Shown here piece by piece: positions 19,167 through 47,159 of a stretch of DNA of 64,000 bases; the stretch's first letter is position 1; each line of letters starts with the position of its first letter. Location: NCBI GenBank assembly GCA_006386115.1, contig VFIW01000012.1:620001-684000 (forward strand), given 5' to 3'. The notes under the pieces were generated by a model that saw only the letters and a list, made by a program, of their open reading frames with translations, did no database searches and was not told the origin of the DNA. This stretch comes from Globisporangium splendens (taxonomy: Eukaryota > Oomycota > Peronosporomycetes > Pythiales > Pythiaceae). The position numbers and the translations under genes were made by a program.

Positions 19167-19663
19167 CCTGCCCTGCTTGTTGATTTTTGCGATGGCAGAA
19201 CATGCAAATGAAAATAAACTCATGTGGCCCACATAAAACACTGATAGGTTTATGCCAGTCAGGGTGGCATGTTGAAATAGTCGTGCATTGAGGTACAATG
19301 CGATTTTGGAGCCGAAAAAGATCTGTTGCGTTGACTCTGTTCACATACACACACGCACACACACTGGCAACGATGATGCTGCAATACCAAGGCAGACTGC
19401 CGATAGCAACACTGCCAATTAATGCAGACACAGGCACAATAATCACAAAGGAGGCCGCCGTTGCATCCCGCTCAGAAACGGGTAGTTCGGTCGCTCGACG
19501 AAACTGCCCACATTTTCTTCTTGGTTTGCGTTCTTCAAAGTGAAACCTTTTCGAGGTTTTTTTTGGTCCAGGAATAGATTTTTGCGCCTTTGTGTGACTG
19601 CCACATCAGGAAAAAACCTCGCGAGCTGCCTCGCTCCCCTCCTTTTTCACAGCAACAGAAAGG

Positions 19664-19870: not shown

Positions 19871-20525
19871 CAGCTCCATTTAAAACACAAGCAACATGTT
19901 GGCTCAGTTGGTTGCGGATGTGTGCCCTTCGTCGGCGTCGTTCTTCGGCTTCATGGGCGTGGCCTCGGCCCTCGTCTTTGCGAGTACGTAGTGCTGTATT
20001 ATTATACTGTGAGTTTGTGTGCGCTCGATTTCCAGTATTGCTTTTACTCACCTTGTGGCGGTGTCTCCCTTTTTCGCTAATAGACCTTGGTGCTGCGTAC
20101 GGCACGGCCAAGTCTGGCGTCGGTATCGCGTCGATGGGTGTGATGCGTCCGGAACTGGCCATGCGTAACATCATCCCTGTGGTCATGGCTGGTGTGCTCG
20201 GTATCTACGGCTTGATCGTGGCGGTTATCATCCAAGGTTCGATCGACCCGCCGAACGGCAACTCGCCAAAGTACGGCTCGTACTCTGGTTTCGCGCACTT
20301 GGCTGCGGGTTTGTGCTGTGGTCTGAGTGGTTTGGCGGCTGGTATGGCCATCGGTGTGGTCGGTGACGCGGGTGTGCGCGCGGTGGGCCAGCAGGAGAAG
20401 CTGTTTGTGAACATGATTTTGATTTTGATTTTCGCGGAAGCTTTGGGTCTGTACGGTCTGATCGTGGCGTTGATCCTGTCGCAAAAGAAGAGCGACTGCC
20501 CGACAGCGTAGGCAGCAGAGACGCA
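19871..20525 (+). repeat. Left arm of a 655-base inverted repeat
   Basis: Reverse complement of 21003-21657. I find only two differences over the 655 bases: A/G in the third position of the Thr codon near the stop (20505 region) and T/C in the intron near 20037. The arm starts 25 bases before the ATG and ends 14 bases after the stop, so it covers essentially one gene including its intron. Spacer is 477 bases. Confidence 0.95.
19896..20511 (+). CDS. VMA3: V-type H+-ATPase proteolipid subunit c, copy 1
   Basis: Forms the rotating membrane c-ring of the V-ATPase V0 sector, which acidifies vacuoles and endosomes. Exons 19896-19983 and 20084-20511 (intron 100 bases) give 171 residues, four membrane helices. 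Helix 1 begins [20 protein letters not shown], followed by [20 protein letters not shown] (the family signature). Helix 4 is [20 protein letters not shown] with the proton-carrying glutamate in FAEALG. The sequence is identical in protein to copy 2 on the opposite strand, with the two genes converging tail to tail. Confidence 0.97.
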
Positions 20526-21002
20526 GCAAAGAGCAAGCACTCAGTGGTCAGAGTGGAGAAGGAGTCGAAACAATGGGACGAGATCACCAAGAATAGATAG
20601 CTCTATGAGATCGATCTTTCTCACCTGAACGGCAGCATTTGTACTTTTTTAATTTGACAATGCTACACCAGAACGTCAGATTTGCATTATACAACGTGGT
20701 TCTTTGTGCTTTGGGAGATTGATGGAATACTGATCATGGAGCAACGAACTCAACTTCAACACCCACACGAGAGTACAACTCAGACCAGCATCTCATCATA
20801 AGAGAAAAAATTCAAAGTATTTATATTGAGAAGAGCAATATCGATTAATAAAAGAGAGAACCCTGTCTGCAATCAGCATCTTGGCACAATTGCATTGCGA
20901 TTCTCTGTGTAAGCTTCCTTTCCTCTCGCTCTTGTCGTTGGCAAAGCTGCTGCTACACGTCAGCGCGAACGAAATTCAACCACGAGTTCCTCGCAGCGTG
21001 TT
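20526..21002. other. Spacer between inverted V-ATPase genes
   Basis: 477 bases separating the two convergent copies; AT-richer than the genes and without a coding frame. It must hold both 3' UTRs and polyadenylation signals. Sequences just outside the arms on the two sides are unrelated, so near-identity stops at the gene edges. Confidence 0.7.
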
Positions 21003-21657
21003 TGCGTCTCTGCTGCCTACGCCGTCGGGCAGTCGCTCTTCTTTTGCGACAGGATCAACGCCACGATCAGACCGTACAGACCCAAAGCTTCCGCGAAAAT
21101 CAAAATCAAAATCATGTTCACAAACAGCTTCTCCTGCTGGCCCACCGCGCGCACACCCGCGTCACCGACCACACCGATGGCCATACCAGCCGCCAAACCA
21201 CTCAGACCACAGCACAAACCCGCAGCCAAGTGCGCGAAACCAGAGTACGAGCCGTACTTTGGCGAGTTGCCGTTCGGCGGGTCGATCGAACCTTGGATGA
21301 TAACCGCCACGATCAAGCCGTAGATACCGAGCACACCAGCCATGACCACAGGGATGATGTTACGCATGGCCAGTTCCGGACGCATCACACCCATCGACGC
21401 GATACCGACGCCAGACTTGGCCGTGCCGTACGCAGCACCAAGGTCTATTAGCGAAAAAGGGAGACACCGCCACAAGGTGAGTAAAAGCAATGCTGGAAAT
21501 CGAGCGCACACAAACTCACAGTATAATAATACAGCACTACGTACTCGCAAAGACGAGGGCCGAGGCCACGCCCATGAAGCCGAAGAACGACGCCGACGAA
21601 GGGCACACATCCGCAACCAACTGAGCCAACATGTTGCTTGTGTTTTAAATGGAGCTG
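21003..21657 (-). repeat. Right arm of the 655-base inverted repeat
   Basis: Mirror of 19871-20525 (paired coordinates sum to 41528), differing at about two positions, one of them inside the intron. Confidence 0.95.
21017..21632 (-). CDS. VMA3: V-type H+-ATPase proteolipid subunit c, copy 2
   Basis: Same protein and same two-exon structure as copy 1 (exons 21545-21632 and 21017-21444), read from the other strand. Intron sequence is preserved apart from one base, so this is a DNA-level duplication or gene conversion, not a retrocopy. Only 25 bases upstream of the ATG are shared with copy 1, so the two copies have different promoters; copy 2 lies divergent from the TMEM260-like gene. Confidence 0.96.
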
Positions 21658-22089
21658 GACGCAACGAGAGTACTTTCTGTTCCGGACGACAGCACACACA
21701 AAGCAGTCAGCGACGCCGTCCACCGCATCGCATACACACGCACGCAGAGCCATCAGCGCACAGCGTATGACCAACAAGCCGCCGTATGCGCCTGCGCACG
21801 ATCTTTGGACGCACCTGTTAGGACTGGGAGCGCACGCGAGAAAATGGGAGAAACCAACAGCACAAAGATCAGGTCGCCTCGCCCCCACAGAAGAATTCAC
21901 TCTATTTATTTCCCCGAGGTTTTTCTCGTATCTGTCTCTGTTTCAGAAAGCTGAGAAGATCCAGAATAGAATGCATCTGACAAAAAAACCTCACACGAAG
22001 CAAAAAGACGAGGTTATTATTGGACGGGGCTTGTATTGAGGAAGGATTCGGTAGTTGCATATCCATGAAAACGTATCTTCAAGGGGTAC
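21658..22089. other. Intergenic region upstream of V-ATPase copy 2 and the TMEM260-like gene
   Basis: About 430 bases between two divergent starts, without a supported gene. It probably contains both promoters. Confidence 0.45.
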
Positions 22090-44172: not shown

Positions 44173-46796
44173 TTACACCAGCGCCAAAGTGCTTTCGACG
44201 GCTTTCTTGGCGTGCTGCTGCTGGTCACTGCCATCATCATGCGCATCTTTTCCAACAGCAGCAGCTGAAGACGAAGAAGCAGAAGTAGTACAGCTGCTGG
44301 CACCGTCTGGCGTGAGTTTCCGTCGCTTGGTCGCGGATGGAGACGCCATGGATTTCTCCAAGTCGTCACTCAACAGCGAGTTCGCGTCGCCCGCACTCGA
44401 GTGTTTGTTGTCCGCAGCGTGGATCGCAGTGTCCATTGCAATCTGGTGATCTGAGGCATGGTGCAACGTTGTGTGATCAAACGGGAGGTCTTCTTCGTCT
44501 ACATAAGAAAACAACATTTTACAACATGAGCAGCGAGTCGTAGATCAGACTCGCCTTCGAGAGTTAACTACGTACATGTTGAGTCCAAGAACGTCGGCTC
44601 CTCTTCCTCGTCTTCATCTTCGTTGTCCTCGTCCGCCGAGTCGTTCGTGGGCAATCCCGAGGAAAGACCATGGCTGGTGCTCGTGCTGCTGTTGTTATTG
44701 CTGGTATTGCTGCCCAAGTTTGCGCGCTTGCACGTGCGCTTGTTGTGGCCTTTCACACCGCAGATGCTGCACGAGAGTTTGTCTTGCTTGACGTCGCCAA
44801 ATTGCTGGATCTGCTGGATTTTACGCGGTCGTCCCCTGGTCTTTGGCTGCGGAAGCGGCTGCGTGACATTGTCCGACGCCACATTCTCGACATCGATTGG
44901 CGTGATCCGACCGCCATAGAGCGCCTTCAACGACGTCATCAGGAACATACGAGGGATCACATCGGCGCGCAACAACCCGGCAAATGAGATCGCGAGGAAC
45001 ACGTGGAGACACGGGAACCGAGATGCATCGTACTCACCGCACGTACAGCTCTGTTTCGCAAAATCCACGATGCGTTGCCGGCCCGTCTGGTGATCAATCA
45101 CTTCGTACCCGTGCTCTGCGATCCGAAGTACCTCGAAATGGTTCGCCTCGGCTTCGTAGTGCAGCAAGAGCGCATGGAACTCGTCCGGGTACTCGGAGCT
45201 GATCTGGCCGTACTTTTCAAACCGCTGAAAGAGCGTACTTGCGACCTTCGAGACCCATCCGACCAGAATCATCAACGGAGTCTTCGTGCAAAGCGTCTCG
45301 ATCCATTGAAACGACGATTGCAACGGGGCAATGGCGCTGGATCCGGGGATGGCATTGCTCGCGTTTGCAGCAGCAGCGCCATTGTTAGCACCGCTCACCG
45401 CGAAGATATCCACTCCGTCGGATTGAACACAGTTTGGGAAAAGCGCATGCAACGGCCGCTGGAGATCCTCACCACGGCTGTGCACGAGCGTCGTCACCGA
45501 ACGCACAAAGTCTGGGATCGCCTGGTTCAATTGCTGCAGGAAAAACAGCCAGTTGGCTTCGGATTCCACGGGCACGACGCCGATCGCGATTGGGACGTTC
45601 TCACCCATGGCATCCTGTGTCGTCGCCGTCATCAGCACGCCACCATTCGCCGACGTGATCAGGAACACACTAAACAGCACGACTGAGCGACAGTAGCGCA
45701 GTGCGGACTGCAGAGGCTTGGGGCACAGGAACGCGCGCGAGAACGTCGTGGTGCCGGGCATGTGCTCAAAGGCCGCAACGGACCCTTCGTTGCTTTTCAC
45801 AAACGCGTCCAGGTACCCGCGGATCTTCATGAACGACGCGCCTTCCTCGTTTTTCTTTTGCTGTCGGAACGCGCTCAGTGCACGCCACGCCGTCATGTAC
45901 GACGTCGAGACGCCAAACTGCTCTTTCATGATGCCTGCCATGTCTTTTGGACGCACGGCGTCACCGACTTTGCTCATGAACGGCTTGGCGGTCTCCATAA
46001 GCGCAGCTGCTGAGATGAAGTTCGCCGAGTTCGATTGTGCAACCGAGCAATTCGGATTGTGCGAGATCACCGCGCGCGTCACGTACACGCGGCCATTCGT
46101 GTGTCGATTCGCCGACACCACAAACTCGCAGGTCGTGGGCGTCGTCTTGCGGTGCTTCCACGTCGGACAACGCGCTTCGAGGCGTTGCGGACTGCTGTGC
46201 TGCATGTAATACGGCACGTTCATGCGCACCGAGATCACCTTGAGCTCACGTCGCAGTTCGCCCATATCGCTGTAGCTTTCACGGAACGGCGGACAGCGCG
46301 CTGCCACATGGCTGTTGTTACTACTATTAGCGCTCGCATTGGCATTGCTCGCTAACGCATGTCCGTGGTTCATACTCTCTCGGATGAGGTGGGCGACTCG
46401 GGCAATCGAGACGTTCGCATTGGTGGCTGCAGTCACAGGTGCTCCGTGTCCAACCGATGCCGCTGTTGTCGTTTGCATCGACGGTTGTGCCGCCGCAGTA
46501 AGGTTCATATACGCCTGCACGATCGCATCCTCGCGCACTGCCGCAGCAATCGCCTCATCGCCTGCATGCGCCATCACCGCGTCACTTGCCGCGCTGCTCT
46601 CCGTCGTAGCTGCTGCTTCTCCCGTCGCTACTTCATGGCCAACTCTAGCAGCACCAGCAGATGTGGATGTACTGCTATTAGCACCAGCAGTTAGCGCGGT
46701 CTGCGCGTCATCAGCTGCCGCATTAGCAACGTCGTCCGGCAGCTCTATCGCGGCGTCTTCGTCCGCATTCGCAGTCCGTGCATCTGCTCGCGCCAT
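44173..46796 (-). CDS. MULE-transposase-derived (FAR1/MuDR-like) protein with SWIM and CCHC zinc fingers
   Basis: Exons 44576-46796 and 44173-44498 give 848 residues. After an Ala-rich low-complexity start comes a zinc-binding-like N-terminal module (EARCPTWKHRKTTPTTCEFV, HNPNC), then the MuDR pre-transposase pattern FGVSTSYMTAWRALSAFRQQ and NEGSVAAFEHM. The MULE core reads ALRYCRSVVLFSVFLI, GGVLMTATTQDAMGENVPIA, VVPVESEANWLFFLQQLNQ. A SWIM finger, CTCGEYDASRFPCLH (CxCx9CxH), a TRGRPRK AT-hook and a zinc knuckle CSICGVKGHNKRTC follow. The catalytic aspartate expected at the start of the core (normally x-D-G-x-F) is FS here, and the one before the conserved P-x-C segment is also not visible, so it is probably not an active transposase. 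No terminal inverted repeats were noticed. A DNA-binding regulator like plant FAR1/FHY3 is the likely role. Confidence 0.8.
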
Positions 46797-47159
46797 GGTG
46801 GTGGTCGAGACGGCAATTTGAAATTTTCCCCCGCGCGCTTTCCGTAATTTTCCCGTTTCTCTGCGGCCACAACCGCAAGAGGTCATCTCTCCCGCTTGCA
46901 CTTTTGGATCACAAATGTACCACTGAAAGCGATGCAAGTTGCCATATTGCAACGATACACACTGGAGTTGCAAGGTGAGGGTGTGTTTCCCCCCTGTTGA
47001 GCTTTTGCTTTGCAGCCGAACAAGACCAAGTCGAAGAGCTCAAGCAAAGAAATCCTCAGAAGAGCGCACGCGTGCATCTCTCTCTCTCTGTGCACGTCCC
47101 ACGCCGCCACGCCCCGCCCCTCCGTACAGGAGACGACCCACTAGAAGAAGCAGACGCCC
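46797..47159. promoter_or_regulatory. Shared divergent promoter region
   Basis: 363 bases between the start of the MULE-derived gene (minus) and EDC4 (plus). A CT-rich tract (ctctctctctgtg) lies at about 47077-47090. No defined element is named; the function is inferred from gene orientation. Confidence 0.45.

Follow-up and report, generated by a model that had tools for sequence, protein, structure and literature searches.

The linked Drosophila paralogues Amy-p and Amy-d are described as a palindromic pair in which the coding sequences are alike while the flanks evolve independently (PMC3924832, in the part of the article drawn on here). The same review argues that the mirror-image layout of Drosophila Hsp70Aa/Ab and Hsp70Ba/Bb favours conversion over copy-number change, because crossovers in such a layout give harmful products and conversion is the lasting outcome (PMC3924832). 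In Caenorhabditis, excerpted text describes inverted paralogues, convergent or divergent, that form long near-perfect inverted repeats and are old by a three-species comparison (PMC1803023). The Caenorhabditis hsp16 modules lie 416 bp apart and have diverged flanks, and col-12 and col-13 of C. elegans are 99.5% identical across a reading frame that contains an intron, with very low flank similarity (both from sections of PMC3966223).

The pair described here belongs to the oomycete Globisporangium splendens. Its product, by domain content and similarity to solved chains, is V-ATPase subunit c (16-kDa proteolipid), a rotor subunit of the cell-acidifying proton pump. The favoured explanation, with a probability of roughly 0.7, is an old inverted duplication that included the promoter, followed by homogenisation of the transcribed core by gene conversion, with both copies probably kept for dosage. 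Among the literature matches listed, titles and abstract openings contained nothing on this pair or on V-ATPase gene conversion in oomycetes.

The inverted pair of subunit c genes

The draft genome of G. splendens rgcb-1 was assembled with MaSuRCA from PacBio Sequel and Illumina reads and amounts to 53.3 Mb, with 195 scaffolds over 10 kb (PMC7163027). The window is the whole 64-kb stretch analysed, bases 620001-684000 of a 1,065,501-bp contig, one of the 195 contigs that make up the 53.3 Mb. Features of the locus are collected in Table 1.

Table 1. Features of the subunit c locus, in window coordinates
Feature	Position	Strand	Detail
Paired inverted element before copy A	19553-19621	+	GAGGTTTTTTT -343, AAAAACCTCG -284 (relative to the ATG)
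Arm A	19871-20525	+	655 bp
V-ATPase subunit c gene, copy A	19896-20511	+	exon 1 19896-19983, intron 19984-20083, exon 2 20084-20511 (including stop); 171 aa
Spacer between arms	20526-21002		477 bp
ATTAAA	20653	-	polyadenylation-like hexamer, spacer
AATATA	20827	-	polyadenylation-like hexamer, spacer
AATAAA	20847	+	polyadenylation-like hexamer, spacer
Arm B	21003-21657	-	655 bp, 2 mismatches against arm A
V-ATPase subunit c gene, copy B	21017-21632	-	exon 1 21632-21545, intron 21544-21445, exon 2 21444-21017
Paired inverted element before copy B	21915-21992	-	GAGGTTTTTTT -360, AAAAACCTCG -292 (relative to the ATG)

Reverse-complemented, arm B aligns to arm A along all 655 bases, gene and intron included, with no gaps and 99.7% identity. 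One of the two mismatches (20036, T vs C) falls in the intron; the other (20505, A vs G) gives ACA or ACG, both of which encode Thr, and is silent. The original prediction of two 655-base arms, 477 bases apart and differing at about two positions, one in the intron and one silent, proves correct to the base in this alignment. Near-identity reaches 25 bp upstream of the ATG (19896) and 14 bp downstream of the stop (20511). At both edges it is lost abruptly, to about chance level in an ungapped comparison: the first 50 bp outside the arms are 36% identical on the 5′ side and 26% on the 3′ side, and longer stretches (to 400 bp on the 5′ side and 238 bp on the 3′ side) are 23-29% identical. These edges and the unrelatedness of the flanks had likewise been foreseen.

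Pairing of the arms is far beyond chance. They form the only inverted repeat pair in the 64-kb window (seed 14, minimum length 30), and an arm matches exactly two places in the 53.3-Mb genome, namely these arms (best E = 0). With 2 changes across 100 intron sites and about 130 synonymous sites, silent divergence between them is about 0.9%, lower than the 4.3% that separates the two copies of a different region of the assembly, a single comparison in which coding and non-coding sequence are mixed.

Both copies are intact, with an 88-nt exon 1, a 100-nt GT-AG phase-1 intron and a 428-nt exon 2, and their 171-aa products are identical. The genes are oriented tail to tail with a stop-to-stop gap of 505 nt. 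The protein has two PF00137 (ATP-synt_C) stretches in one chain (whole-protein E 6.4e-34) and among solved structures is closer to c chains (best 1.4e-60) than to c'' chains (21-kDa proteolipid, best 2.9e-22), which agrees with the predicted identity of the gene. In its FAEAL stretch the E aligns to the E of chain 36qu_g, the conserved acidic residue of the last helix, which has the proton-carrying role in subunit c. Entries from Phytophthora and Peronospora among the best 120 of 7987 matches are 99% identical to the protein.

A PF00137 search of the 53.3 Mb found copies A and B as the only c genes. The domain was also matched by one gene on contig C140, a multi-intron gene read from its sequence as c'', and by AT-rich sequence on contig C48, probably atp9 in a mitochondrial inverted repeat. 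The PF00137 reading frames on this 98-kb contig (L005, L006) have 15% GC and occur in two copies of opposite orientation with about 6.4 kb between them. One locus each was found for c'', D, E and d, the four other subunits searched from a set that also includes A, B, C, F, G, H and a. The upstream neighbour of copy A is a minus-strand reading frame, which we take to resemble Med22 and of which a 72-aa piece gave no Pfam match; that of copy B is a plus-strand TMEM260-like gene (PF11028). Elsewhere in the window, an 801-aa ORF (44571-46973, minus strand) with weak matches to a SWIM zinc finger and a MULE transposase is likely the remnant of a Mutator-like element.

Self-comparison of 264 kb of the contig, which at 0.5% of the genome is a poor guide to the rest, yielded 65 repeat pairs of at least 200 bp, 61 of them wholly inside a cluster at 795-849 kb. 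The V-ATPase pair is the sole inverted one of the four outside it (the other three are direct, with 98.3%, 69.5% and 68.8% identity), and the only one of the 30 inverted pairs in the 264 kb to lie outside the cluster. The cluster itself (contig C34, L034-L039, outside the window) consists of repeats with inverted ends of about 650 bp, some 1237 bp apart, that resemble a transposon with long terminal inverted repeats and are unrelated to the V-ATPase arms. On contig C165, two H2A-like histone copies (L046 120-860 and 2860-3600) lie in direct orientation and are 99.9% identical over at least 741 bp. They were rejected as a second case of identity limited to a gene: although their likeness sets in 3 nt downstream of the stop codon, it continues upstream beyond the fetched 5′ end.

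The paired element upstream of both copies

The two upstream regions share two exact matches, GAGGTTTTTTT and AAAAACCTCG, which are inverted forms of one element and lie at near-equal offsets from the ATG. In the 53.3 Mb, GAGGTTTTT-N(40-70)-AAAAACCTC has five occurrences, two of them in the upstream regions of copies A and B, and the reversed-pattern control has none. As single 9-mers the element is found five times in 264 kb of the contig, four times in the two upstream regions. Random segment pairs had at least two matches as good in 23 of 20,000 draws, by a criterion fixed after the match had been seen; overlaps of low-complexity sequence account for several of the 23. Aligned as a whole, the upstream regions stand weakly above shuffles, of which 15 of 300 (450 bp) and 14 of 300 (whole region) reach the score; in the reversed-orientation control 44 of 300 do. 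Between the spacer halves there is no similarity above shuffles (115 of 300). The original prediction that the duplication is limited to the gene itself thus stands for near-identity and fails for shared sequence as a whole, the element pair being common to both upstream regions.

A gene-only recent copy is not expected beside the element pair at the same offset, so the duplication probably included the promoter; alternatively, the pair could have been gained independently or selected for regulation. An element common to V-ATPase promoters is not supported: the loci examined for c'', D, E and d, about 3 kb each and possibly too short to include a distant promoter, lack all four 8-mers looked for. 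The pattern has its three remaining sites in the genome at L018 1501-1565, L019 1501-1576 and L020 1501-1565. L018 and L020 lie near a carnitine acyltransferase-like gene, and L019 near a small reading frame. The surroundings of the former two (L018 12-3057 on contig C123 and L020 1-3065 on contig C178) carry the same genes and are 95.7% identical over 3074 aligned bp; they represent either uncollapsed haplotypes or a segmental duplication in the assembly. The sites at L018-L020 are possibly an oomycete regulatory site.

Origin and maintenance of the pair

In the favoured scheme, an inverted duplication would have taken in the gene and its promoter, after which the non-coding flanks would have diverged until nearly all recognisable similarity was gone. 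A break in one arm would be repaired from the other, and such gene conversion would keep the transcribed core near-identical. Once diverged, the flanks would be closed to conversion, whereas the coding part would stay open to it under purifying selection; the convertible tract would thus shrink to the gene, which may explain edges so close to the ATG and the stop. Both copies were probably retained for dosage, a plausible reason because a complex uses more copies of c than of any other subunit: solved complexes have 8-9 c chains against one c'' chain per entry, and c'', D, E and d each have a single locus among the matches to them. Concerted evolution of the c pair is inferred here from one genome, one scan each of viral_contigs and genome_contigs having yielded no relative.

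The preference for conversion between old copies over a recent duplication, which the original prediction drew from the mismatch of the flanks, holds, and the element pair independently supports an older duplication that took in the promoter, but flank mismatch is in itself insufficient proof because duplications can be partial (PMC3966223, in the sections drawn on). The second copy may instead have arisen by a recent inverted duplication of only about 655 bp, whose flanks never matched and for which conversion is unnecessary. The two differences in 655 bp also fit such a young duplication and in this respect count against an old converted pair. Partial duplications are documented in Caenorhabditis, and the same sections of the review warn against excluding them by flank divergence alone (PMC3966223). 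The low overall similarity of the upstream regions and spacer halves points the same way; the flanks have clearly diverged on both sides, and it is the element pair, beside a weak overall upstream alignment, that argues for their joint duplication. A recent partial duplication is nevertheless unlikely, because chance alone would have had to place its endpoints 25 bp upstream of the ATG and 14 bp downstream of the stop, a proximity to the coding ends that would seldom be expected of random endpoints, and because the new copy would be without a promoter, yet the same rare element pair stands upstream of both at a near-equal offset. Neither a mobile element with long terminal inverted repeats nor a retrocopy accounts for the pair: the former was rejected because the arm and the two upstream regions are found nowhere else in the genome, the latter because the intron is present in both copies.

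The assembly, in which a search with the arm and both upstream regions found one haplotype at this locus, is a MaSuRCA hybrid (PMC7163027), and an artefact might consist of a false second copy or of more diverged real copies made alike by the hybrid assembler. Flanks and spacer are, however, unique on each side, and the arms retain two differences. A palindrome left by a missed adapter would mirror the flanks too. The 10.2 Gb of PacBio sequence in 0.7 million reads (PMC7163027) gives by division a mean of about 14.6 kb, many times the length of the 1.8-kb structure. That the assembler falsely homogenised the arms is unlikely, and an assembly artefact of either kind very improbable.

Identity of the arms might also be kept by the transcripts themselves, if read-through yielded a long hairpin or a double-stranded RNA with a regulatory effect on the gene. 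The geometry permits this should either gene be read through the 477-bp spacer. When 14 bp of each arm are included, the fold of the spacer is better than that of shuffled sequence (z -2.12, 1 of 100 as good), but the arm ends pair by construction. Read-through into the opposite arm is, however, not expected because polyadenylation-like hexamers, though weak evidence, sit inside the spacer on both strands; the 3′ ends of the two c genes could overlap, with 3′ UTRs that stop short of the opposite arm. Since gene conversion accounts for the identity without it, this RNA-based mechanism is extremely improbable, and the original suggestion of a hairpin or double-stranded RNA over a V-ATPase gene finds no support in a spacer with such hexamers.

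Comparison with known palindromic pairs

The pair is most likely an old duplicate maintained by conversion, a known kind of arrangement in a new setting, the oomycete lineage. If confirmed in relatives, the c genes would extend such pairs, known from flies, nematodes and mammalian sex chromosomes, to an oomycete V-ATPase rotor gene. They would also offer a compact natural test of the limits of conversion tracts, with a 655-bp core whose edges lie no more than 25 bases from the coding sequence and adjoining promoters that, one element aside, have diverged. This rare element, common to both promoters, gives a handle for finding a regulator. A more speculative and rather doubtful view is that the mirror layout is a maintained device that continually proofreads an essential, high-demand gene by conversion, and that the near-unique paired element, still at the same offset in both promoters although almost all else has diverged, is a selected binding site for an undescribed oomycete regulator that few other genes share; one further site lies near the carnitine acyltransferase-like gene. 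As a practical caution, short-read or k-mer analysis may merge copies A and B.

The c pair resembles palindromic pairs in that its members are linked, inverted and nearly identical in both coding sequence and intron. Of the tandem C. elegans genes col-12 and col-13 it shares the near-identity of gene and intron beside dissimilar flanks, but these lie in the same orientation whereas the c genes are inverted (PMC3966223, in the sections cited). Like the Caenorhabditis inverted pairs, in the hsp16 cluster and elsewhere, it consists of near-perfect inverted paralogues (PMC1803023 and PMC3966223, both in excerpt). In contrast to those repeats, which as excerpted extend into intergenic DNA, its identity ends 25 bp upstream and 14 bp downstream of the coding sequence. 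With Drosophila Hsp70Aa/Ab and Hsp70Ba/Bb it has in common tightly linked mirror-image copies; there the support, as given in the cited part, comes from species comparison and shared silent polymorphism, while the c pair is known from one genome (PMC3924832). Amy-p and Amy-d resemble it in palindromic orientation, similar coding sequence and dissimilar flanks (PMC3924832); they differ in gene and lineage, and their concerted evolution is described there from several species rather than one genome. By analogy of layout, seen here in a single genome, the c pair may work like the palindromic Amy and Hsp70 pairs of Drosophila.
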